From: a virus
IMG/VR virus record: IMGVR_UViG_3300035072_000065
Span: 1-45,200 of that record
Direction: 5' to 3' (one strand)
Length of the DNA: 45,200 bases
The translations under genes and the position numbers were made by a program. Below, in pieces: positions 31,080-43,473 of this stretch. The number at the start of each line of letters is the position of its first letter. Within the stretch, counting starts at the first letter, position 1. The notes under the pieces are model-generated. The model worked only from the letters and a program-made list of their open reading frames with translations. It was not told where the DNA came from and ran no database searches.

Positions 31080-31475
31080 CTAAAAGAGGTCGCCTTGGTC
31101 GCCTCTGTTCGAACTGCGCAGCCGCGCCTTCACCCGGCTTACAGTGCGCACATGCATGTCGGTTGCGAGCGCTACGGCGTCGAGGCTCTGGCCTTCCGCG
31201 AGGCGCTCGGCGGCAAGGCGGCGCCGGCGCGACAGATAACCCTTCTCGCCAAGCGGAATGAGCACGCGGCCGCCGGCGAAATGGGCCCCGAGCCGATCGG
31301 CCGCCTCGCGTCCGACAAGCTCGACGAGCCAATGCCCGTCCGGCGCGCGTTTCGGGATTCCTACCCTCACCCCGCCATGGGTGTGCATCAATTGCAGCGC
31401 CGCCGGCAGGCCGGCGACGCGCGCGATCTCTGCGAGCGTCGGCGGGAGGTAGGCGTAGTCGTCGGACTCGATCAC
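31080..31475 (-). CDS. Mor/C-family transcription activator
   Basis: 131 residues from the GTG at 31475 (GGAGG 7 nt upstream; GTGA overlap with the methyltransferase stop). YLPPTLAEIARVAGLPAALQL and the beta segment GRVLIP-G match the Mor dimerisation domain; the C-terminal QSLDAVALATDMHVRTVSRVK is its helix-turn-helix. Mor and C of Mu turn on middle and late promoters. Only one such gene is present, so this protein likely activates late genes directly from the CTGACA boxes. Confidence 0.85.
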   Translation of the reverse strand: MIESDDYAYLPPTLAEIARVAGLPAALQLMHTHGGVRVGIPKRAPDGHWLVELVGREAADRLGAHFAGGRVLIPLGEKGYLSRRRRLAAERLAEGQSLDAVALATDMHVRTVSRVKARLRSSNRGDQGDLF

Positions 31476-32044
31476 GCGGATTCCTCCGGCGCGAAGAAGT
31501 CGACCTGGTTGCCCCAATGGTCCCAGCCGGGACGCTGGCAGCGCGAGAACAGCTCCAGCTTGCGCACGCGCGGGAACATGCGCTCCAGCTGCTCGTGAAG
31601 CTCGTCGGGCTTGCGCGATGACTCGCGGATCGGGGCTTCGATGTAATTGCGCTCGCTGTGCGAGCAGATTTTCGGGCGGCCGATGGAGCCGGCGAGGTAA
31701 GGTTCTCCCGCCTCGCGCCACCAATGCCCCTTGCCGAAGTGACGTGCGTTTCCGGTTCGAGTGAGCTTGCCCCAGAAGCCCATGGTCTTCGGCTCGAAGC
31801 CCCAGCGTTTCACGAGATCGACCGCAAAGGCGATCTGCTCGGGGGTGAACCACATCACCAACGCGCAGTTGGGCGCGGCGAGCTTGTGGACCGGAAGGCG
31901 CATCAGCTCGCTCTTCGTCATCGTCTGATAGGGGACGCCCTTCGCGTTCCCGCGCTCGCTGAAGGTCTCGAAGCGCCAGGGCGGGTCCGCGAGGATGAGC
32001 CCGTAGGAGTGCGGATGGAGATCGCCGAAGGGCCAATCGCTCAT
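31472..32044 (-). CDS. MT-A70 family DNA adenine methyltransferase
   Basis: 190 residues from the ATG at 32044 (ATGA overlap). The DPPW motif lies at 20-23, with SAM-binding ALVMWFTPEQ further on and WGNQVDFF at the end. MT-A70 phage enzymes methylate adenine in DNA, giving protection from restriction. In the early operon, just before the Mor/C gene. Confidence 0.88.
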   Translation of the reverse strand: MSDWPFGDLHPHSYGLILADPPWRFETFSERGNAKGVPYQTMTKSELMRLPVHKLAAPNCALVMWFTPEQIAFAVDLVKRWGFEPKTMGFWGKLTRTGNARHFGKGHWWREAGEPYLAGSIGRPKICSHSERNYIEAPIRESSRKPDELHEQLERMFPRVRKLELFSRCQRPGWDHWGNQVDFFAPEESA

Positions 32045-32238
32045 CGCCCTCGCGCCTCTTGCTCTTTCGCGCGCTTGCGCTGCATCGACTCCTCGACGCG
32101 ATCGATGAGGGCGTCTAGGACGCCCGAGTGATAGTCGCGCTCGCGCGGGCCGAGGCCGTGGTCCTTTTCGACCGATCGTTGCGCCTGGCGCAGCGTCGCG
32201 AGCTGGGTCGCGTCGGAATAGACGCGCTTCTCGGTCAC
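32041..32238 (-). CDS. Small coiled protein, unknown function
   Basis: 65 residues from the GTG at 32238, preferred since GGAGG lies 5 nt upstream and it forms a GTGA overlap. Highly charged and helical (RVEESMQRKRAKEQEARGR end). Overlaps the methyltransferase start as ATGA. Confidence 0.5.
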   Translation of the reverse strand: MTEKRVYSDATQLATLRQAQRSVEKDHGLGPRERDYHSGVLDALIDRVEESMQRKRAKEQEARGR

Positions 32239-32747
32239 TGCCGCCTCCACATGGCTTCGAAGGCGCTTTCAAAGCGCTTTACGGCGGCCTGGCAGCGCAG
32301 GACGATCAGCGAATTATCCTGCCGCGTCAGGCCGCCGTGCGAGAAATTGCCGGCGCCCTCGCGCACGAATGTGTCGTCGACCGCATAGGCCTTCAAATGC
32401 ATGAAGGGCGCGGGCTCGGCCTTGTATCTGATCTCCACATTGAGCCGCGCCGCGAGGCGGTCGTAGACGGCGGCGAGCGGCTTCGGCATGCGCACGTCGG
32501 CGCCGTCGCGATAGAGGCGGATGGCGACGCCGCGCGCGGCCGCCGCGTCGAGCGCCTCGACGATGCGAATGTCGGTGAGGACATAGGCCGCGAAGTCGAT
32601 GCGCGCCTTCGCCGCGCCGATCAACGCGACGTCGATCGCCTCCAGATTATCGGCCGGCGCATAGGCCTGCCGGTCGAGCCGGCAGGGGCTGGCGTTGGCG
32701 GGCGTGGCGAGCGCAAGAGTGGCGAGGAGGATTGTGAGGCAATTCAT
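32235..32747 (-). CDS. Secreted phospholipase D-like (Nuc-type) protein
   Basis: 170 residues from the ATG at 32747 (ATGA overlap). A signal peptide ending ANA (residue about 19) is followed by a single PLD domain with H117-x-K119-x4-D124 and the downstream GAGNFSHGG, the HKD pattern of Nuc-type endonucleases. It would act in the periplasm as a dimer. Odd in a phage early operon; it might degrade incoming DNA (inference). Confidence 0.8.
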   Translation of the reverse strand: MNCLTILLATLALATPANASPCRLDRQAYAPADNLEAIDVALIGAAKARIDFAAYVLTDIRIVEALDAAAARGVAIRLYRDGADVRMPKPLAAVYDRLAARLNVEIRYKAEPAPFMHLKAYAVDDTFVREGAGNFSHGGLTRQDNSLIVLRCQAAVKRFESAFEAMWRRQ

Positions 32748-33187
32748 TTCCACCATCCAATCAATTTGCCGACGAAGACGGCGCCTTCATCGAGCATGCC
32801 ATGTGTATCGATCCAGAACTGGCGCATCTCGTCCCATGATGCGAAGCCATCCTTGACTGCCAGCACGCCAAGGCCACTGCGCTTAGTAAGCCAAATGCCA
32901 TGAATGCTGCCGCCCTCTTTGAAGGCGACAGTGCCCGTCGGTCTCGGCTCACACGGATAACCGACGCCGACGACGGCCCGCTCGTTGTGGAGATCGAGCG
33001 CTACATCGAGCACCGCTGCGCATGTTTCGCGCGCGATCAGGCGGCAGTGCCGTGTGCGCATCCCGGTGTAGAGCTGTAATGCCTCGCCCGGTCGCGCATG
33101 GCGTTTCCGATCCGCCCGGATCGTGTGAAGCTTCTGCCCGCTCAGGATCGGCTCGGCGAAGCGCTTCTGGAACGAGTAAGCGACCAT
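32744..33187 (-). CDS. ASCH-domain protein
   Basis: 147 residues from the ATG at 33187 (TGATG with the previous stop). SFQKRFAEPILSGQKLHTIRADRK is the ASCH start (RNA-binding PUA-like fold), and a GIWLTK strand follows. Family members bind RNA or hydrolyse N4-acetylcytidine; here unknown. Common in early operons of Mu-like phages. Confidence 0.75.
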   Translation of the reverse strand: MVAYSFQKRFAEPILSGQKLHTIRADRKRHARPGEALQLYTGMRTRHCRLIARETCAAVLDVALDLHNERAVVGVGYPCEPRPTGTVAFKEGGSIHGIWLTKRSGLGVLAVKDGFASWDEMRQFWIDTHGMLDEGAVFVGKLIGWWK

Positions 33188-33399
33188 CACTTCCCCTTGT
33201 TGCATTTCGGGCAGGGCGGGCCGTCGTTGGCGTCCGCGAGCTTCCATTCCATCCAGCGCGACGCGCCGCAGCGCGGGCAGTCGAACCGGCAGATTTCATT
33301 GCCGCGCGCGTTCCACCCGTGATCGCGATAGGCCATCAGCTGGGCGCGCGGCGCCCGCACGCGCTTGAAGAAATCGAGCTGGAGGACGGCGTCGGACAT
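33187..33399 (-). CDS. Small zinc-ribbon protein
   Basis: 70 residues with CPRCGAS and CPKCN, a four-cysteine zinc ribbon. Coupled on both sides. Function unknown, likely nucleic-acid binding. Confidence 0.65.
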   Translation of the reverse strand: MSDAVLQLDFFKRVRAPRAQLMAYRDHGWNARGNEICRFDCPRCGASRWMEWKLADANDGPPCPKCNKGK

Positions 33400-33773
33400 T
33401 ACGCGGAGGCCCTTTCTTGGCGACGCGCAAGCGTCATCAGCCGACCTTGGATCGAGTTGCGGTGACGTCCTAACGCCTTTGCGATTTGAGAGACCTTCTT
33501 GCCCTCGCGCTCCAATTCAAGAAGACGCGCATCCTCCTCCGGCGTGAAACGCCGTAAGACGAAGCCGTTGCGCACCATCGTCGCAGGGCCTCTGACGCCA
33601 TCCCAACATTTGGCTGGCTTCGGAGGCTCCGCGGCGAGCCTCAGGCAGTGGTAGGAAATAGCACTACTGCTCATGTTGAGCTTTTTGCCGATCCTCACAT
33701 AGCTCCAGCCTCGCTCTCGCAAGGCGACGATCGTCGTGAGGTCATCGTCGGAGAGACGTCGATGATCTTTCAC
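33399..33773 (-). CDS. Double helix-turn-helix DNA-binding protein
   Basis: 124 residues from the GTG at 33773 (GGAGG upstream, GTGA overlap). An N-terminal HTH (LRERGWSYVRIGKKLNMSSSA) and a C-terminal Myb/GcrA-like HTH (RFTPEEDARLLELEREGKKV...) are visible. Probably a regulator or recombination accessory. Confidence 0.65.
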   Translation of the reverse strand: MKDHRRLSDDDLTTIVALRERGWSYVRIGKKLNMSSSAISYHCLRLAAEPPKPAKCWDGVRGPATMVRNGFVLRRFTPEEDARLLELEREGKKVSQIAKALGRHRNSIQGRLMTLARRQERASA

Positions 33774-34033
33774 GCCGCCATCCTCCATTCGATCTGCGCC
33801 GCCGCCGTCCTGCGCGTCGCGTCATAGTTGCGCGCCTTTTGCAGCTGGCCGCGCGCGACCTCCCAGGCGTGCTTCTGGGCATGGCCGAAGGAGACGCCTT
33901 CGGTCGCCGCCCAGCGGCGCGCGAACGTCACGATCGCCGAGCGGTCGAAGCTGCCGTCTTGCCGAATAAGGCGGCGCCCAAAGATGCAGTTGATCGCGCC
34001 CGCGGAGAGCGGGCTCTTGCGTTGCTTTGCCAT
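33770..34033 (-). CDS. Small basic phage protein, unknown function
   Basis: 87 residues from the ATG at 34033. Basic and helical, with RSAIVTFARRWAATEGVSFGHA. Typical of the small early proteins of Mu-like phages of alphaproteobacteria; no function known. Confidence 0.55.
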   Translation of the reverse strand: MAKQRKSPLSAGAINCIFGRRLIRQDGSFDRSAIVTFARRWAATEGVSFGHAQKHAWEVARGQLQKARNYDATRRTAAAQIEWRMAA

Positions 34034-34734
34034 CACGCGGCTTCCTTCTTCTTCGCCTTCTTCGAAAGATGCAGGCGCAGCCAGCGGCCGCAGGCGGCGG
34101 ACATGGCCTGCCAGTGTTCCGGCAGGTAATGCATCGCGCCGGCGACGGGCACATGGCCGCGCTTGAAGCACCATTCGACGAAGAACTCCGGCCAGGCCTG
34201 CTCGAAGGTCAGTCCATCGAGCTTGAAGGCGCCCGTCTCGATCAGGCGGCGGCAGGCGGCCTTGGCGACCGCCTTCTTCGTGTCCGCATAGCCGACCGAG
34301 GAGTCGCGCTGCGGCCATTCGACTCCCGCCTCGCGCGCGATCCAGCTTTTCAGCGCCTCGATCGCCTTCGCCGCGTCCGCTGGGTCTTTGAGGAAGCGCG
34401 TGTGCGAGAGGCCGGTCTGGCGCTCGACGAAGGCGAGGAGCGCCTTGTCGTCGCGCGAGCGGGCGACGCCGAGGTGATAGGCGGAGATCCACAAGGCGCG
34501 CAGTTTCGCCGCGTAAGGCCCCTCGGCCCTCTCGCTGGCGCGCCGGACCTTGCCGTTCTGGCCGGCAAGCGTCTTCAGCGTCTCGATGACCTTGCCAGCC
34601 TGCGCATGGGTGAGCCGGGTGGAGCTATCGACCTTGAACTCGCGCAGCAGATAGGCGCGATAGTCGGCGTCTGTGTAATGCGGAATCTGCCGGCGCAGCG
34701 CGTGGATCGCTTTGGTCTGAGCGAGGGCTGTCAC
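34033..34734 (-). CDS. GemA-like regulatory protein (Mu gp16, DUF1018)
   Basis: 233 residues. The start IHALRRQIPHYTDADYRAYL and the region LTHAQAGKVIETLK, plus LRALWISAYHLGV, define the GemA/gp16 family. GemA affects host gene expression and supercoiling in Mu. Central in the early operon. Confidence 0.85.
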   Translation of the reverse strand: MTALAQTKAIHALRRQIPHYTDADYRAYLLREFKVDSSTRLTHAQAGKVIETLKTLAGQNGKVRRASERAEGPYAAKLRALWISAYHLGVARSRDDKALLAFVERQTGLSHTRFLKDPADAAKAIEALKSWIAREAGVEWPQRDSSVGYADTKKAVAKAACRRLIETGAFKLDGLTFEQAWPEFFVEWCFKRGHVPVAGAMHYLPEHWQAMSAACGRWLRLHLSKKAKKKEAA

Positions 34735-35167: not shown

Positions 35168-35794
35168 TTATGCATTGGCGAGATCGATGGTGACCGGCCG
35201 CCACTGGCCGTCCGGCGCGTCGCGATCGAAGAAGCGCACATAGGTCTTGGAGCCGATGACGCGGATGCTGTCGCGCACGGCGTCCATGGCCCGCGTCCAG
35301 CGCTCATCCTCGATCGCGACGCGGAGCAGCATGAAGATTTCGCTTCGGTTGATCTTGCCTTCCTTGTCGACCTGGAAGGCGCGCGTCACGAGAGCGCGGA
35401 TTTCGGTGCGCGCATCGGCCGACCAGTCCATCAGGCATTCGTCGACGAGCTTTTTCGCCGCCTGCAACTCGGGACCAAAGTCGAGCTGATCCTGCACCTG
35501 CACCTGCACCTTCATGAGGCCGTCGAAGGTGGTGAGCGTCAGATTGCCTTTCTTGCCGCCGAGCGTGGCGTTGTATTGCTCGTCGACGAGCGCCTGCAGC
35601 GAGCCGATGTCGTCGAAGGTGTGGCCGCGGAAACGCGCGATCTGCGCCGAGAGATCGCGGGCGAAGCGCATGATGTTACGCACCGTGTCGTCGATGAGGA
35701 GATCGACCGGCTTGATCGCCTCCTCCGGCACATAGGCGCCGCGCGCGTCGCGGCGATGCGGCTTGCCGTTGATCATGGTGACGGGCTCAGACAT
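35168..35794 (-). CDS. DUF3164-family early phage protein
   Basis: 208 residues from the ATG at 35794. INGKPHRRDARGAYVPEEAIKP and DQYNATLGGKKGN-like segments are typical of DUF3164, common beside MuA/MuB/GemA in Mu-like phages. The middle is helical. Function unknown. Confidence 0.78.
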   Translation of the reverse strand: MSEPVTMINGKPHRRDARGAYVPEEAIKPVDLLIDDTVRNIMRFARDLSAQIARFRGHTFDDIGSLQALVDEQYNATLGGKKGNLTLTTFDGLMKVQVQVQDQLDFGPELQAAKKLVDECLMDWSADARTEIRALVTRAFQVDKEGKINRSEIFMLLRVAIEDERWTRAMDAVRDSIRVIGSKTYVRFFDRDAPDGQWRPVTIDLANA

Positions 35795-35981
35795 TTTCGA
35801 TCTCCTGAATGACGGGCCGCATGGGCGCGGGAACGGGGAAATGTTCGATCTCTGGAAATTCAGCGTCGGCCTTGTCGCAAATCTCCTGCGCGACGGCGCG
35901 GACGAAGGTCGACGTGCCGTGCCCTTCGAAGCCGGTCTGCTTGCTGCGCCAGCCGATGTAGTAGAGCTGCTCGTTAGCCAT
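35787..35981 (-). CDS. Small early protein, unknown function
   Basis: 64 residues with YYIGWRSKQTG and a Pro-rich end. Overlaps neighbours by 8 bp on each side. No family recognised. Confidence 0.5.
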   Translation of the reverse strand: MANEQLYYIGWRSKQTGFEGHGTSTFVRAVAQEICDKADAEFPEIEHFPVPAPMRPVIQEIENV

Positions 35982-36762
35982 TGACGGCGTCCTCCTTGGT
36001 TTTCAAAAAGGCGCGGGCAAGCGCTGAGACGGAGCGCCGATAGCGCTCGGTCGCATCGCGTTCGGCAGCGGTGAACTCCGCCTTGCACATCGCATCAAAG
36101 GCGGCGACGACGGCGTCGACCTCGGCGCTTTTGCCCTGGCGCTGGCGCATCTTCTCGACGAGCTCGTCTCTCGCCGCGCGAAGGTTGAGCGATGGCTTCG
36201 AGCGCAGCATGGCCTCGGCGCCGATAAAGTCGTGGATGACGGCGCCAAGCGTTTCGCCAGGCGCTTCCACGAAGATCGGCGCGGGCGCGATTCCTCGCGC
36301 CAGCAGCTCCTCAGAGCAGACCAACGCCTCGGCAAGTTCGATCACCGCGTCCGGAGACAGGCGCAGCGCGGCGCGTCTGCCTCCACGCAGGATGTTACGC
36401 GCTATTTCGAGAGGCGAGATCGGCTCCTCCGGCTCCGGCAGCATGCCGCGGCCACGCAATTGGCCGAGTGACAAGGCGGCGCTTTCCAGCGCGAAGACGG
36501 TCTCGGCGAGCGTCGCATCGCTCGCGATCTCCGCCTCGACCTTGTTGGCGCCGTGAATGACGGTCGTATGGTCGCGTCCGCCGAGCGCCTGACCAATCTG
36601 GGGCAGGCTTTTCTCGGTGAGCTTGCGCGCCAGATACATGGCGATCTGGCGCGGGGCGATGACCTTCGCCGTTCGGCGTGCCGAGCGCAGATCAATCTTG
36701 GAGCACTTGAAATGCTCGCAGACAACGTCGATCACGTCGGAGATGGCGACGGGGCCGCTCAT
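35974..36762 (-). CDS. Stand-alone DnaA domain IV (replication-initiator DNA-binding) protein
   Basis: 262 residues. Residues about 10-80 form DnaA domain IV: RRTAKVIAPRQIAMYLARKL and the signature GGRDHTTVIHG (61-71). Domain III (AAA+) is absent; the remaining 180 residues are helical and unrecognised. Host DnaA binds TTATCCACA boxes, and this protein could compete with it or recruit replication proteins (inference). Coupled to the next gene by ATGA. Confidence 0.85.
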   Translation of the reverse strand: MSGPVAISDVIDVVCEHFKCSKIDLRSARRTAKVIAPRQIAMYLARKLTEKSLPQIGQALGGRDHTTVIHGANKVEAEIASDATLAETVFALESAALSLGQLRGRGMLPEPEEPISPLEIARNILRGGRRAALRLSPDAVIELAEALVCSEELLARGIAPAPIFVEAPGETLGAVIHDFIGAEAMLRSKPSLNLRAARDELVEKMRQRQGKSAEVDAVVAAFDAMCKAEFTAAERDATERYRRSVSALARAFLKTKEDAVNG

Positions 36763-37130
36763 GCCGCGTCTCCTTCGTCTTTCGAGCGGTTAAATTCCTG
36801 CTCGTCGTGGAAGACCTCGCGCAGGTCCACGACCTTGCCGGCGCGCATCCCATCGCGGATCGCCGCCTCGCGAAGATGGCCCGCGAGGAAGTCGGGAATT
36901 GTCAGCGCCTCGATGCGGCAATCCGCGGCGAGGAGGCGGGATTCGAGGAGCAGTATCTCGTCTTCGAGAGACCGGGCCTCGATGGCGAACATCTGGAAGG
37001 CGGTGATGATGATCTCGACGCCAGCGGGCGTGAGCGCATCGCCGGAGTCGAGGTGCTCGCGGATGAAGCCGCCGAAGGCCATGAGGTCCGCTGAGAGGCA
37101 GGGAGCGACGGCTTGGACAGCGTCACGCAT
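36759..37130 (-). CDS. Early phage protein, unknown function
   Basis: 123 residues, helical and acidic, with GGAGG 5 nt before the ATG. ATGA overlap with the DnaA-like gene. No family recognised. Confidence 0.55.
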   Translation of the reverse strand: MRDAVQAVAPCLSADLMAFGGFIREHLDSGDALTPAGVEIIITAFQMFAIEARSLEDEILLLESRLLAADCRIEALTIPDFLAGHLREAAIRDGMRAGKVVDLREVFHDEQEFNRSKDEGDAA

Positions 37131-37545
37131 CGACGCCTCCCTCTGCCTTGAGCCGCGAATGCGCGCAGCCGGAGCGGCAGGCGTGATACATGGCGACGCG
37201 ATGCGGGCTCGACGCGTTCAGCGGCATGTCCTGCTCACGCAGGCAGCGATCGCGACGGATCGGGCCCGCCTCCGGACAGTCGACCGTCTCCTGCATCATC
37301 ACGCCGCGCACGAGCGCCTCGATCTTCGAGACGTCCTTGGCGCGATAGTTGTTGGAGATGAGCTGGGAAACCGTTGACGCCGAACGATCGAGACGGCGCG
37401 CGGCGTCCGCGACCGAGGTGCGCCTGGCATATTTTGCCAGCTCCTCGATCCAGTCGGGGATATCCGCGCCCCAGGACTGGCGGGCCTTGGCCAGAAAATC
37501 GACCTTACCGGAAGGTAAAGAATTAACGTTAACGGGAGCGCTCAT
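37123..37545 (-). CDS. Helix-turn-helix DNA-binding early protein
   Basis: 140 residues from the ATG at 37545. The HTH is YARRTSVADAARRLDRSASTV (residues about 37-57, first helix included) followed by SQLISNNYRAKD. The C-terminal half has a cysteine group (DCPEAGPIRRDRC, CRSGCAHS), as in related Mu-like phage regulators. Likely modulates host or phage transcription. Confidence 0.7.
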   Translation of the reverse strand: MSAPVNVNSLPSGKVDFLAKARQSWGADIPDWIEELAKYARRTSVADAARRLDRSASTVSQLISNNYRAKDVSKIEALVRGVMMQETVDCPEAGPIRRDRCLREQDMPLNASSPHRVAMYHACRSGCAHSRLKAEGGVDA

Positions 37546-38180
37546 AGCGAAACCTCGCTCGTTTCTGGTTCGCCGACGATTTTTTGCGTGTTGGGATCGA
37601 AGACGATCTTCGTCTTGAAGATTTTCGGCGGCTTCGGGCCAGTGTTTGCTTTTGGCTTCAGCGCGTAGCGGCCAGCGCGGGCGCCGGTGCGGCCCGGCGC
37701 GCCCTTGCGATATGGCGTGATCACCCGCACAACCCCGGCGTTGATCAAGGCGCGGATGTATTTGTCGGCCGTGTGCTGCTTGATCTCCATGTCGCCGGCC
37801 TGCGCCTGGAAGCACAGCTCTGCGATCGAGAAATCCTGCATGCGGCGCATGGTCTGCCAAAGCCGCTCGCGGATGACGCCGCGCTCGCCGGTATAGTCGG
37901 GCCGACGTTGGACGGGAGCCGCGCGGGAATTCTTTGCGACGCGATAAACATTCGCGTCGCAAAGCCTATTCGACGGCCGCTCGCCAATCTTCTCGATGTA
38001 GCCCCCCTTTGCGAGAAACAGCATGTAGCCTTTGACGGAATTGTAGGCGACGCCGCTCGTGCAACCGACAATGTCGTTGATCGTGAACCCGCCTTTTGAG
38101 GAAAGGTCGCGCATTTCCTTCCAGTAATGTTCGGGCCCGCGCGGGAGATGGATGGGGAGATTGAAAGGCCGCTGCATCAA
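37542..38180 (-). CDS. Winged-helix-like early protein
   Basis: 212 residues. Two helical HTH-like units (FTINDIVGCTSGVAYNSVKGY and FSIAELCFQAQAGDMEIKQH) and basic linkers suggest DNA binding. It lies between MuB and the next HTH gene, coupled by ATGA at both ends. Function unknown. Confidence 0.65.
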   Translation of the reverse strand: MMQRPFNLPIHLPRGPEHYWKEMRDLSSKGGFTINDIVGCTSGVAYNSVKGYMLFLAKGGYIEKIGERPSNRLCDANVYRVAKNSRAAPVQRRPDYTGERGVIRERLWQTMRRMQDFSIAELCFQAQAGDMEIKQHTADKYIRALINAGVVRVITPYRKGAPGRTGARAGRYALKPKANTGPKPPKIFKTKIVFDPNTQKIVGEPETSEVSL

Positions 38181-38920
38181 GCGTCCTCCCGGTATTTCGG
38201 AGACTTCGTCTCGAAATGCATGTTGCGATAGGTTTCGACGTCGAGCTTAGCGAGGCCGTAGTTGCGGCAGTGCTCGATGATCTCCTCGCAGGCCGTGACG
38301 ATCAGGCGGGGCCGACGGTTGTTGCGCTGCCTGATCTCTTCGAGGCAGGCGTCGTCGATCTCGATGCCCGGCGCGAAATAATCCACGAGCTGGCGCGCGT
38401 CTTCCTGATTGCAGGAGACGCCGGGCTGGCGCTTGAGCACGCGGCCATCGAAACGGCTGATCTTCGCCACCTCCATGGGCAGCACTTCTTCGCCGACGAG
38501 GATGAGCGGCATGCGCGCGGCGTCGGAGATGGAACGCAACGTCTCCAGCATGTCGGGCTTCGCCGCCATCTTGTCGGCTTCATCGATGATCAACGGGCGC
38601 TCGGGCGCTTCGGCGATGAATTCGACGCACATTTCTTCGAGCGTCGCGATCGTGCCGCGCGCGCCGGGAACGCCCAGCTCCGCAAGCAATGTCTTGAGGA
38701 GATGGCGCACCGACCAGGTCGGTTTCGCCGTAAGAATGACGCCGTCGACCATATTGCGCACATGCGTCGCGGCTTCGGTCTTTCCGATGCCGGTCGGCCC
38801 GTAAAACAGCACGATATTCTGGCGTCCGTTGCCGCGCTCCATCACACGCGTCGCCAGCGCATAGAGCAGCTGGACGTTCCGCAGCGGGAGCCTCTTGTGT
38901 TGGACCTTCTTTTCTCTCAT
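38177..38920 (-). CDS. muB: Transposition target-DNA protein MuB (AAA+ ATPase)
   Basis: 247 residues from the ATG at 38920; a TTG at 38983 is an alternative. Walker A GPTGIGKT (41-48) and Walker B IIDEAD (111-116), with a downstream sensor-type SRFDGRVL-R. MuB binds target DNA, directs transposition and gives target immunity. Directly follows muA. Confidence 0.87.
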   Translation of the reverse strand: MREKKVQHKRLPLRNVQLLYALATRVMERGNGRQNIVLFYGPTGIGKTEAATHVRNMVDGVILTAKPTWSVRHLLKTLLAELGVPGARGTIATLEEMCVEFIAEAPERPLIIDEADKMAAKPDMLETLRSISDAARMPLILVGEEVLPMEVAKISRFDGRVLKRQPGVSCNQEDARQLVDYFAPGIEIDDACLEEIRQRNNRRPRLIVTACEEIIEHCRNYGLAKLDVETYRNMHFETKSPKYREDA

Positions 38921-39007
38921 AGTGGCGATGTTCCGTTTGTCTGAAAGGTCGCTGGCTGCACCCGGCGGCCTTTCGCTTTTCAAAAACTCACTCGATCGAA
39001 CGCTTAC

Positions 39008-41128
39008 TCAACGCGACGCCTTGTCGAACTTGGCCTCGAACTCGCTCATGGCCCGATATTCGTGGCTGAGCTGGTAGCCGCCGAGCCAAATGGCGTCCTC
39101 GCTCGGGATCTGCTCATTGTTGGCGAGCCGCGCCTCCAGCTCCTTGGCGCGGCGGAATCTCTGTTGCGGGGTCTGTGTCGGCCGGAGCGTGCGGACCTGC
39201 GGGTTGGACGCTGGCTTTGAGGGCGTTTCGACGGGCGTTTGAGGCGGCGTTGCGGGCGCCGTTCCAGCCGCCTCGCTTGCCGCCGCGAGGCCGGGCGTCG
39301 TGTAGCTTTCCTCGCGCTTGGGGAATTCGACGAGCTTGCCGGCTTCCAGGGCGGCCTTGCGCACGATCGTATCGACCATGTCGCGCGGCTTGATTTTGCG
39401 CATGTCGGCCCGCAGCTCGGCCGCGCGCTCTTCGAGCAGGCGCTTTTGCTGGGCGCGCGCCTCCATGACGGCGGCCTTCGGGTCGATCCCCGCCAGCTCC
39501 GGGCAGATGGCCTCGCCGAGGAATTCGGCGCCGTCCTCGGAAAACAACCAGGCGCGGCCCATGTCCTCGGGGTCCATGCGGACGAAGACGCGAGTCTCGG
39601 GAAGCACATTGGGTGCGAGATAGTAGCTGTGATCGATGCGCACGCCGCGTTTCGTGACGGAGCGCATGCCGTCCGTGCCGGCGATCGGCGCGAGAAGGAG
39701 ATCGAGCGCGCGGACATCGTCGATCTTGCGCACAACGCCGGCGAAGGACGCCGCGGCCTGGAAGGGCGTTGCGCCGTCGATGCCGTCATGTGGGCGATGG
39801 GCATAGCGGCCAGAGGCCCAATCGTCGCAGATTGCCTGCAATTCCTTGGCGGTCAGCTCCGCCTTGAAGATTCCGGCATCGTCTATGCCCAGTCGTTGCG
39901 CGAAGGAGCGACGCTCTTCGATCCGCTTGCGGTCTTTGACGTTGTGGCCGACGAAGCCCGGCAGCAGTGGACAGAGATCGTGCTGGAAGTTCTTCACCGC
40001 CCGCTCGATATGGCCCTTCTGTTGCGGCTGGTGCGGGTCGGAGACCTCGACCTCTATGCCGAGCGCGGCGAAGAGGCGCTGAGTCGATTTTGCCTTGAAG
40101 TCTGACCCATTGTCCGTCTTGACCCGCTCGGGCATACCCCAAGCGATGATGGCGCGACGCATAAGCAGCTGCACGGCTTCCGCGCGCGGCGTCTTCGATA
40201 CATAGACGACGAGCCGGCGCGAGAAGATATCGACGCAGAGATAGACCGAGTGGCGCCCGTCGACGCAGAGTGCATCCACAGGCGAGGCGTCGATCTGCCA
40301 CAGCTCATTAAGCCGCGAGACGGGGTGCGAATTGGAGCCGGAAAGGCGGTAGGTCCCGCGATACTTGTCCGGGTTCGTCACCCGCGTGAGCAGCACCTTG
40401 TCTTCGCGCTCGATCTTGGCGCGCATGCGCTGGAAGGAGCGCAGTGAGACGTCCTTCGCCCAGGGGAACTGCGCTTCCGCCAGCGTCTTGAGATGATCGG
40501 CCGAGAGATGCGGCTGATGGGCGACGGCGGCGAGGAGGAACGCCCTTACCTTGCCCTCCTCGCCGGACTCGAGCTTACCCTTACCCCTACGCGCGGCGCC
40601 CTTGTCGACGCCGAGCCTTTGCAACTCCCCGCGGCGCTTGTGCGTGCGCCAGCGCGCCAGCGAGGGAGCCGAGAATTCCTTGACCGCTTCGCGCACCCAG
40701 GGCGCGACCTCGATCTGTCCGAGCCGGTAGAGCCCGGCGAAAAGCCTGTCCGCGACATGCTGCGAGAGGCCGCTCTCGCGCGCCAGACGCTCAGCGGCGC
40801 GAAGAAGTGCGAGGCGTGCATCGCGCGCCTCCTGCGCCGCGATGGTAAGGCTGCCTCCTCCCGATCGCGCATCTTCCGCCGCAACGTCGACCGCGCCCAC
40901 ATGCCGCGCGACATAGCCGGCGAGCGAGACGGGCGGCAGAAGGTCGATGTGATATTCGATGCGCTCGCCGCCGCGGCCGGCGACGACGCGGGCGAGCGGA
41001 TGTCCATGGCTGTCTTTTCGCCTCAGCCAGCCCTCGCGCTCGGCATAGTCGAGCCAGCCCTGCTTGGTCGCAGGGAGGCCCGGCAGGCCGAGAGCGGCGA
41101 GGTCGGAAGCGGAAAGCCAGTCGCGCAT
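39008..41128 (-). CDS. muA: Transposase MuA (DDE integrase/transposase)
   Basis: 706 residues from the ATG at 41128. The N-terminal winged-helix region (MRDWLSASDLAALGLPGLP) is the Mu DNA-binding domain. Catalytic residues are D280 (WQIDASP), D339 (KTDNGSD) and E375 (KGHIERAVKNF). A beta-barrel and helical C-terminal region follow, for MuB contact. It binds the CGCGACAGATCATATG sites at both ends. Confidence 0.95.
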   Translation of the reverse strand: MRDWLSASDLAALGLPGLPATKQGWLDYAEREGWLRRKDSHGHPLARVVAGRGGERIEYHIDLLPPVSLAGYVARHVGAVDVAAEDARSGGGSLTIAAQEARDARLALLRAAERLARESGLSQHVADRLFAGLYRLGQIEVAPWVREAVKEFSAPSLARWRTHKRRGELQRLGVDKGAARRGKGKLESGEEGKVRAFLLAAVAHQPHLSADHLKTLAEAQFPWAKDVSLRSFQRMRAKIEREDKVLLTRVTNPDKYRGTYRLSGSNSHPVSRLNELWQIDASPVDALCVDGRHSVYLCVDIFSRRLVVYVSKTPRAEAVQLLMRRAIIAWGMPERVKTDNGSDFKAKSTQRLFAALGIEVEVSDPHQPQQKGHIERAVKNFQHDLCPLLPGFVGHNVKDRKRIEERRSFAQRLGIDDAGIFKAELTAKELQAICDDWASGRYAHRPHDGIDGATPFQAAASFAGVVRKIDDVRALDLLLAPIAGTDGMRSVTKRGVRIDHSYYLAPNVLPETRVFVRMDPEDMGRAWLFSEDGAEFLGEAICPELAGIDPKAAVMEARAQQKRLLEERAAELRADMRKIKPRDMVDTIVRKAALEAGKLVEFPKREESYTTPGLAAASEAAGTAPATPPQTPVETPSKPASNPQVRTLRPTQTPQQRFRRAKELEARLANNEQIPSEDAIWLGGYQLSHEYRAMSEFEAKFDKASR

Positions 41129-41132
41129 GACG

Positions 41133-41336
41133 TCAGCGAGCCTCCCGCAACTGCTGGCGCTCGATGGCGTCGATACCGTCATGCTCCGGGTCGAGAACGG
41201 CGCGGAAGGCCAGGTCTTTGAACCAGCCGGGAGGCAGTAGGCACGCGACGCAGAGGCTGTGTTCGGCGCCCGCGACCAGAACGAAGGTGACGATGTGCCG
41301 CCCGCATTCGATGCAGTCGAATTCGCGCGTGCTCAT
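41133..41336 (-). CDS. Small zinc-finger protein
   Basis: 67 residues with C-x2-C pairs (CIECGRH and CVACLLP). Lies between the ParB-like and MuA genes, starting in a TGATG overlap. Function unknown. Confidence 0.65.
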   Translation of the reverse strand: MSTREFDCIECGRHIVTFVLVAGAEHSLCVACLLPPGWFKDLAFRAVLDPEHDGIDAIERQQLREAR

Positions 41337-42184
41337 CAGGCGGCCTCGTCGCTCTTGGCATGGACAAGGCCATGGGTTTTTAGGAAATTCGCGCGCGTCC
41401 GCTTACTCGCCTTGCCCCACAAATCGATAAGCTGGGCGTAGATGCGCGCCTGCGGATCGTCGGTTTTCGGCTTGTCGACGCCGATGACGACGCGGGCCTC
41501 GGCAACGCGCTTCGCCTCGCCACGCTTGATGGCGGCGGCGGCGTTCCGTTGCTGTTCGGGCGCGAGTTCGACGAGCTGCTTCAGCTCGACGATATTATCC
41601 TCGATCATCGTGCCGCGGATTTCGGCAACCGCTTGCTGATCGAGCGCATTAGCGATGCGCACCGCCTCTTTGACCTGCGTCTCCGAGAGGCCGATGCGCG
41701 CCGCGGCCGCCTTCGTGAAGCGCGCGGAGGAAATAATGGCGGACTCTGCCATTTTTTTATCCCCTTGCAGCTTCTCGATTTTCGGCTTGCGTCCCCGCGT
41801 CTCGCCGCGCTTGGCGTCGGCCACTTTCTTGGCCTCGGCCAAGAAGATTGCGCGGTCGAGCGCGTTGAGTCCCGCATTGGCGAGGTTCTCGAAGACCTCG
41901 TCCTCGAAGGCCTCCTCCGTGCCCATTATCTTCACGACGACATCGACGCCGACGCTGAGCGTCTCGACGCCGACTTCATGAAGGCAGGCAAGGCGATGAC
42001 CGCCCGCCACGAGTTTGTAGGCCTCTCCCTCCGGCCGCACGATGATCGGCTGGATCAGCGGGCTCTTGCCTTCGCCGATGCGCTGCTCGGCGATGGCCGC
42101 ATAGGCGGCGACCGTGTCGGGATCGAGTGGTCGTAGACGCTCGCTAGCGTCGATCTCGGCAATTGCGATTGTTTCGGCGGTCAT
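41336..42184 (-). CDS. ParB/RepB/Spo0J-like nuclease-domain protein
   Basis: 282 residues. The N-terminal ParB domain has IQPIIVRPEGEAYKLVAGGHRLA, the (G-E-R/G-H-R) motif; residues about 150-200 form an HTH (ARIGLSETQVKEAVRIAN). ParB-like proteins beside muA are common in alphaproteobacterial Mu-like phages. CTP binding and DNA bridging are possible. An N-terminal GxxRxxA box is as expected. Confidence 0.8.
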   Translation of the reverse strand: MTAETIAIAEIDASERLRPLDPDTVAAYAAIAEQRIGEGKSPLIQPIIVRPEGEAYKLVAGGHRLACLHEVGVETLSVGVDVVVKIMGTEEAFEDEVFENLANAGLNALDRAIFLAEAKKVADAKRGETRGRKPKIEKLQGDKKMAESAIISSARFTKAAAARIGLSETQVKEAVRIANALDQQAVAEIRGTMIEDNIVELKQLVELAPEQQRNAAAAIKRGEAKRVAEARVVIGVDKPKTDDPQARIYAQLIDLWGKASKRTRANFLKTHGLVHAKSDEAA

Positions 42185-42357: not shown

Positions 42358-42663
42358 TTAAGCGGCCTCCCCCCGCGGCATGGACGGCGGAGTGGGCCAC
42401 GCGCTAGGCTCGGCTGAGGGCCGCGCGATCGGCTTTGTGGAGATGACCTTGCCGTCCGCGTCGAACCATTCGGGCCACAACTCCTGGAGCGAAACCCCGA
42501 GGAATTCGGCAATCGCTTTGTTCGCGCGCAGATGCGGGCGAGACCAGAGCGCCCAAGACATGGAGCTCGGGGAGAGCCTGGCCTCAGCGGCCAATTTGGT
42601 GAGCGAAGAGCCGCGACGGGCAATCTCCGCCCGGATCGCATGCCGATCCCACTTGCGATTCAT
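42358..42663 (-). CDS. Ner-like DNA-binding protein
   Basis: 101 residues from the ATG at 42663. WDRHAIRAEIARRGSSLTKLA, SSMSWALWSRPHLRANKAIAEFLGV and WPEWFD match the Ner/Nlp HTH family. Ner represses early and repressor transcription in Mu. It is divergent from the repressor gene, the standard Mu arrangement. Confidence 0.88.
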   Translation of the reverse strand: MNRKWDRHAIRAEIARRGSSLTKLAAEARLSPSSMSWALWSRPHLRANKAIAEFLGVSLQELWPEWFDADGKVISTKPIARPSAEPSAWPTPPSMPRGEAA

Positions 42664-42713
42664 TTGTGTCTCGAACAACGCGCATCCCTCGCGTCACAAA
42701 TCATCTATGCCTG

Positions 42714-42765: not shown

Positions 42766-43473
42766 ATGATCGGCCAAAAAGACGCATATTTGTCTGAAAT
42801 GGCGGCCCGGATCAGGGGCTTGCTCGCGCCGTACAAGTCGTTCCGGCAGGCGTCTGAGGTGCTGGATATCCCTGAGGCGACGCTCGCCCGGCTGGCGCGC
42901 GGCGCCAACGATCCGACTTCCGAGACATTGTTGAGGCTTGCGTCGAAGCTCAACGTCTCCGTTTCATACTTGATCGGCGTCTCCGACGAGCCGCGGCAGC
43001 ATCTCGGCTCCGCACAGCCACATCTGGAACTGAAGCGCGTCCCGAGCCTCGACGCTCGCGTTGCGGCTGGCTCCGGGCAGGTCAATCACGCCGTCGCGGT
43101 CGAGCAGATGCTCGCCTTTCCGGTTTGGATGCTGCAGCGGCTTGCCCCGCCCGGCGCGAAGCTCGCCTTCATGCGGGCGCATGGCGACTCCATGCTCCCG
43201 CTCTTCGCCGACGGCGCGCTGCTGCTCATCAACGAGAACGACAACGAGCTACCAGACCATCCGCCGCGGCCGAAGAGCGAGTTCGACGCCCCGGACCTGT
43301 ACGTCCTGCTGCAGGATGACGTCCTGCGCGTGAAGCGCCTACGCAAGATCGGCCGCGGCGAGCTGCTCCTCCTGTCGGAAAACCGCGCCTACGGCCCGGA
43401 AGTGCTGCGCGGGCCGGACCTGAAACGATGCAAGATCATCGGCCGGGTGATATGGTGGGACAGCCGATTGTGA
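42766..43473 (+). CDS. Lysogeny repressor, LexA-like (S24 peptidase, HTH)
   Basis: 235 residues. N-terminal HTH (FRQASEVLDIPEATLARLARG, residues 26-46), linker with an Ala-Gly pair at about 101-102 (RVAAGSG), and a S24 domain with catalytic S142 (HGDSMLP) and K190 (LRVKRL). This type is cleaved with RecA help after DNA damage, so induction may be SOS-linked, unlike Mu c. First gene of the rightward lysogeny unit. Confidence 0.88.
   Translation: MIGQKDAYLSEMAARIRGLLAPYKSFRQASEVLDIPEATLARLARGANDPTSETLLRLASKLNVSVSYLIGVSDEPRQHLGSAQPHLELKRVPSLDARVAAGSGQVNHAVAVEQMLAFPVWMLQRLAPPGAKLAFMRAHGDSMLPLFADGALLLINENDNELPDHPPRPKSEFDAPDLYVLLQDDVLRVKRLRKIGRGELLLLSENRAYGPEVLRGPDLKRCKIIGRVIWWDSRL

Follow-up and report, generated by a model that had tools for sequence, protein, structure and literature searches.

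The gene at positions 35974–36762 of a viral record of 45200 bases (the window, meaning the whole stretch of DNA that was analysed) was found to encode a 262-aa protein in which DnaA domain IV, without the DnaA ATPase, is followed by a separate helical module. Genes of this kind recur at the same place in the early operon of dozens of related Mu-like phages. The copy in the window probably reads DnaA boxes, and a tentative reading of its role, with a chance somewhat short of even, is that of an early adaptor which competes with DnaA for the host's boxes by placing a helical partner-binding module on them.

The DnaA domain IV gene and its operon

The window was identified as a Mu-like transposable phage, with a MuA transposase, a MuB ATPase, Ner-like and CI-like repressors and GemA all present. 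The closest MuB outside viral contigs was encoded by a Methylocystis contig (L114; 66% identity), suggesting that the host is in or near the Methylocystis group. The original prediction placed the domain IV gene in an early operon, and this setting was borne out, with genes for Ner-like, ParB-like, MuA and MuB proteins upstream and those for DUF3164 and GemA downstream. The features are as follows.

42766–43473, + strand: CI-like repressor (phrog_4), divergent from the early operon
42358–42678, − strand: Ner-like repressor (phrog_769), likely the first gene of the early operon
41336–42184, − strand: ParB-like protein of the early operon, upstream of MuA (in 40 of 57 related loci)
39008–41182, − strand: MuA transposase (phrog_310, 8e-104)
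38177–38932, − strand: MuB-like/TniB-like ATPase (phrog_296, 5e-38; TniB PF05621, 7e-11)
37542–38180, − strand: phage regulator (phrog_2030; in 56 of 57 domain IV loci)
37123–37545, − strand: HTZ, an HTH protein with a conserved Cys/His cluster, the marker of the slot (phrog_2119; in 57 of 57 domain IV loci)
36759–37130, − strand: 123-aa gene with no family match, directly upstream of the domain IV gene (in 3 of 57 relatives only)
35974–36762, − strand: whole gene for DnaA domain IV and the C-terminal helical module (262 aa, ATG start)
36469–36750, − strand: DnaA domain IV, residues 5–98 (Pfam E 5.9e-29; structure alignment with 1J1V)
36550–36582, − strand: recognition-helix signature GGRDHTTVIHG, residues 61–71 (from sequence)
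36298–36414, − strand: C-terminal module part 1, a helical hairpin, residues 117–155 (family-wide; also found without domain IV)
35980–36249, − strand: C-terminal module part 2, a four-helix bundle, residues 172–261 (AlphaFold2 model)
35787–35981, − strand: 64-aa gene (ORF) with no family match, downstream of the domain IV gene
35168–35794, − strand: DUF3164 protein (family match)
34033–34734, − strand: GemA-like protein (PF06252, 9e-26)

The 123-aa gene and the domain IV gene are joined by an ATGA overlap (36759–36762), a sign of translational coupling. HTZ is always located directly after the MuB-regulator pair and weakly matches phrog_296, 'DNA transposition protein', in the HTH region of that family (6e-5); it looks as if it was derived from the N-terminal HTH of MuB, turned into a separate gene. 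In the most distal part of the early operon (33399–33788, − strand), a protein with two HTH motifs and a partial match to phrog_323 (D5-like regulator) is a candidate middle/late activator replacing Mor. An MT-A70 DNA methyltransferase gene adjoins a gene for a PLD-like nuclease at 31472–32756 (− strand).

The 262-aa protein was found to match PF08299 (Bac_DnaA_C) at residues 8–75 (E 5.9e-29; 100.3 bits, cut-off 31.5), and no match to AAA+ or to DnaA domain I/II was found in it using Pfam, in agreement with the predicted domain IV without an ATPase. Its match to TIGR00362 (DnaA) covered profile positions 346–434 only, rather than the full length with AAA+ domain III, and the score, 103 bits, fell short of the 343.9-bit cut-off. 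The protein also matched the sequence of E. coli DnaA domain IV (1J1V) at 1.4e-17 in an ungapped alignment. In an AlphaFold2 model made with an alignment of 40 relatives (mean pLDDT 90.7), residues 5–98 superposed on DNA-bound 1J1V with a Z of 18.2 and an rmsd of 0.8 A over 94 residues.

The GGRDHTTVIHG signature, described earlier as essentially intact, aligns with D433–H439 of E. coli DnaA, and nearly all of the key DNA-contact residues are kept in the window protein. The alignment to 1J1V revealed the full DnaA-box contact set (R399, R407, D433, H434, T435 and T436), with Q408, L422, P423, H439 and K443 likewise identical to E. coli DnaA, and deviations at two contacts, K415 (R in the window protein) and R442 (N). 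In sequence, the domain is 54% identical to its counterpart in the DnaA of Methylocystis and related hosts, and 52% identical to the nearest phage copy. The preserved contacts and this closeness to host DnaA make it probable that the domain reads DnaA boxes.

The original prediction was correct in that domains I–III are missing, but the protein is not a bare DNA-binding domain, and a conserved C-terminal module had been overlooked. Residues ~105–262 (~165 aa) form this second, separate helical region. No Pfam family was matched by the module, and no specific structural relative of the C-terminal half was found, with generic helical bundles only among the highly ranked Foldseek matches.

Relatives and the operon slot

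Relatives were counted using the domain profile over MuB-centred loci for which 3.5 kb or more of downstream sequence was available. The profile detected domain IV on the MuB strand, downstream of the MuB gene, in 31 of 66 viral loci and 19 of 67 genomic loci, two sets that overlap and include near-copies, and 53 distinct domain sequences are represented. Among the nearest Mu-like loci from Alphaproteobacteria, about one third to one half carry the domain. Single-protein searches of viral contigs with the window protein or its MuB found no relative, whereas alignment-based searches recovered them.

In the 57 domain IV loci, a count that includes the window and Rhodovulum phage RS1, the gene order is (ParB)-MuA-MuB-regulator-HTZ-[domain IV]-(DUF3164)-(GemA), and rearrangements are few. 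The domain layout of the window protein recurs in relatives, for which the original prediction had suggested a search. The window protein belongs to this slot family by its position between HTZ and DUF3164/GemA and by its match to a hidden Markov model (HMM) of the C-terminal region. RS1, a cultured Mu-like phage, carries a diverged domain IV copy (37 bits) at the same place. Presence of the gene in the slot by chance or by a one-off insertion is excluded, and its recurrence in this position across dozens of relatives suggests what may be a real way of acting on host DnaA sites.

A single, recent acquisition of the domain from host DnaA was also considered and is not supported, as gene order and the C-terminal half group the window protein with L034. 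In a tree of the 70-residue domain, the window and L034 domains are paired with a support of 98. This tree shows 7 changes and would be compatible with either a single or several origins of the phage domains.

The HMM of the C-terminal region matched 45 of the 57 domain IV ORFs and also ORFs without domain IV. The module was found alone between HTZ and DUF3164/GemA in at least six phages (L098, L142, L014, L011, L150 and L083), and weak matches to the HMM were found in L163 and L168. In a further locus (L135:8899-10576), domain IV and the C-terminal module are encoded by two separate genes on either side of the DUF3164 gene. Because the slot can also hold the module with no domain IV, the core function is not DNA reading, and the natural reading is that the slot protein would be a two-part adaptor in which the C-terminal module is constant and the DNA-reading half is optional. 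A slot in which the DNA-reading half can be present, absent or a separate gene makes both the binding partner of the module and the value of DNA targeting testable.

Residues of the domain are unevenly kept among the 53 distinct phage domains. R407, a backbone contact, is the sole invariant residue (53 of 53), followed by G426 (48), D433 (42), R399 (40) and H434 (36), and the full set of R399, D433, H434, T/S435 and T436 is present in 22. The recognition helix is lost or unrecognisable in L042, L055, L080 and their near-copies, in which the domain IV fold signature is still found; this loss suggests that box reading has been given up there. The pattern argues for a family that as a whole would not read DnaA boxes uniformly, its specificity either drifting or relaxed. 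A family-wide role on host DnaA boxes is disfavoured, because these boxes do not change and would have preserved the base-reading residues that have drifted or been lost.

DnaA boxes and candidate roles

A single exact TTWTNCACA box was found in the window, within an ORF of the late region, and sites with up to one mismatch numbered 11 against 12.9 expected. Exact boxes in the domain IV loci, which as scanned extend to about the left end of the prophage, were at chance level (5 against 5.4 expected), and no DnaA boxes were found in or near the early promoter region. A phage-borne DnaA-box array or origin was therefore rejected for exact boxes. As the phage DNA contains no box cluster, the targets of the window protein, if it reads boxes, are most likely in the host chromosome.

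Sites with one mismatch to TTATCCACA were about twice the second-order expectation in domain IV loci, whether the domain has the canonical residues or not (26 against 12.5 expected; 18 against 9.2 expected), and at expectation in loci without domain IV. These sites are scattered and mostly in coding sequence, and some are at corresponding places of homologous genes, hence they were not counted as operators. They might conceivably include weak phage binding sites.

The mechanism proposed is that of a DNA-binding adaptor expressed early by a Mu-like phage. The N-terminal half would bind double-stranded DnaA-box DNA via domain IV, and the C-terminal half, the constant part of the operon slot, would bind a partner. 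The adaptor would compete with host DnaA by occupying DnaA boxes on the host chromosome (at oriC, the dnaA promoter and further promoters under DnaA control), such that new rounds of host initiation would be delayed and/or the DnaA regulon shifted while the phage transposes. Among the roles originally put forward, blocking of oriC would be plausible and altered expression of DnaA-controlled genes possible. Redirection of host initiation to the phage is unlikely, as this phage relies on MuA/MuB transposition for its replication and no clustered DnaA boxes are present in its DNA.

The adaptor reading is favoured by the near-complete contacts, the closeness of the domain to that of host DnaA, the fold match to 1J1V, the slot in 57 loci and the lack of an excess of boxes in phage DNA, and also by the precedent of YfdR and lambda P for phage restraint of host initiation via DnaA (PMC4776307). 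It is weakened by a base-reading set that is complete in only 22 of 53 domains, by the presence of the module without the domain in the slot and by the twofold level of one-mismatch boxes. The main rival, considered rather unlikely, is a transcription regulator of the GafA type, in which the domain would read phage (or host) operators and the module would contact RNA polymerase, switching later phage genes. GafA provides a precedent in combining a DnaA-like domain with binding of the RNA polymerase omega subunit (PMC9638019, PMC6363796), split GafA genes occur in the hosts of these phages (L216 and L210), and the drift of base-reading residues would fit operators that co-evolve. However, the window protein falls outside PRK06030, no DUF6456 match is present in its module, and the next genes encode the 64-aa ORF and DUF3164. 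The window domain also keeps its DnaA-box residues, yet the phage promoters are without boxes.

It is unlikely that the protein is an accessory of transposition or replication, recruiting the MuB/TniB-like ATPase, MuA or parts of the host replisome to DnaA boxes and thereby biasing targets or aiding the start of replication. The operon is shared with MuA and MuB, and domain IV is always encoded close downstream of MuB. The window MuB matches TniB as well, a family that cooperates with separate target selectors in Tn7-like elements, and domain IV proteins are found beside replication genes in other phages. However, most Mu-like relatives are without domain IV and evidently still transpose, exact boxes are not enriched in the domain IV loci, which reach to about the prophage left end, and no domain shared with TniQ/TnsD was found using Pfam. 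A role in target selection or in hijacking the host origin, in which the protein would bring the module and the transposition ATPase to the DnaA boxes there and coordinate transposition with host replication in a Tn7/TniQ-like division of tasks, is highly improbable. Quite unlikely, too, is a captured domain with non-specific DNA binding only, which would tether the C-terminal module to DNA in general and have no role at DnaA boxes. The invariance of the backbone contact R407 alone, and the lack of a recognisable recognition helix in L042, L055 and L080, would fit such a tether, but in the window copy the residues that contact bases are preserved, and this copy is no more distant from host DnaA than from any phage relative.

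Comparison with known systems

The window protein shares the fold and DNA-contact residues of DnaA domain IV but differs from DnaA in that domains I–III, with the ATPase, are missing and domain IV stands at the N-terminus, ahead of an unrelated helical module. The literature was searched and no paper was found on domain IV in transposable phages. Stand-alone domain IV proteins are widespread in phages, and in those examined the domain is usually C-terminal and the gene near replication genes. Bradyrhizobium phages ppBjS10J-1 and ppBeUSDA76-2, Rhizobium phage RHph_N28_2, ctOK67 and Microcystis phage Mae-JY35 resemble the window phage in carrying a domain IV without the ATPase; however, these five are non-transposable, and the domain is C-terminal, after an N-terminal extension. 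The closest counterpart in slot and domain order is RHVG_00012 of RS1 (phrog_34198), which has the same arrangement but a diverged domain (37 bits, GGKDHSTV) and is annotated only as hypothetical. In several unannotated phage records (OR844989.1, OR849898.1, MG065691.1 and similar), the match resembles an ordinary bacterial dnaA, and host contamination is possible.

YfdR and lambda P are phage products that restrain host initiation via DnaA (PMC4776307), and the adaptor proposed here would resemble them in acting on host initiation. Their binding partner is the DnaA protein (domain I, domain III), whereas the window phage instead carries the reading head of DnaA. If this reading head acts, the DnaA sites themselves would be targeted, making the protein a compact tool for box occupancy.

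In GafA of Rhodobacter capsulatus, a DnaA-like DNA-binding domain at the N-terminus is required for activation of the gene transfer agent and a central part binds RNA polymerase omega; in Hyphomicrobiales, GafA is encoded by two split genes (PMC9638019, PMC6363796). The window protein likewise has an N-terminal DnaA-like DNA-binding domain, and in both cases the domain is found outside DnaA, in Alphaproteobacteria, with a second module fused or split according to lineage. However, the window protein scored 28.3 bits against the PRK06030 cut-off of 148, and its second module is not DUF6456, which was not found in the protein or the next two genes. In host chromosomes with such prophages, split GafA was found as a stand-alone domain IV gene directly followed by DUF6456 (L216:1417-2615 and L210:1276-2618). 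These host genes form their own clade (support 97), with the window protein outside it, and their recognition helix reads RDRTTV where the window protein has RDHTTV. Of the functional precedents for transcription regulation by a DnaA-type domain combined with a second module, GafA is the best, and the phages described here place it in a wider set of DnaA domain IV sequences reused by phage-derived elements in Alphaproteobacteria. Stand-alone DnaA domain IV proteins are thus already known, from many phages and from GafA, and the combination of an N-terminal domain IV with this C-terminal module is a new variation.
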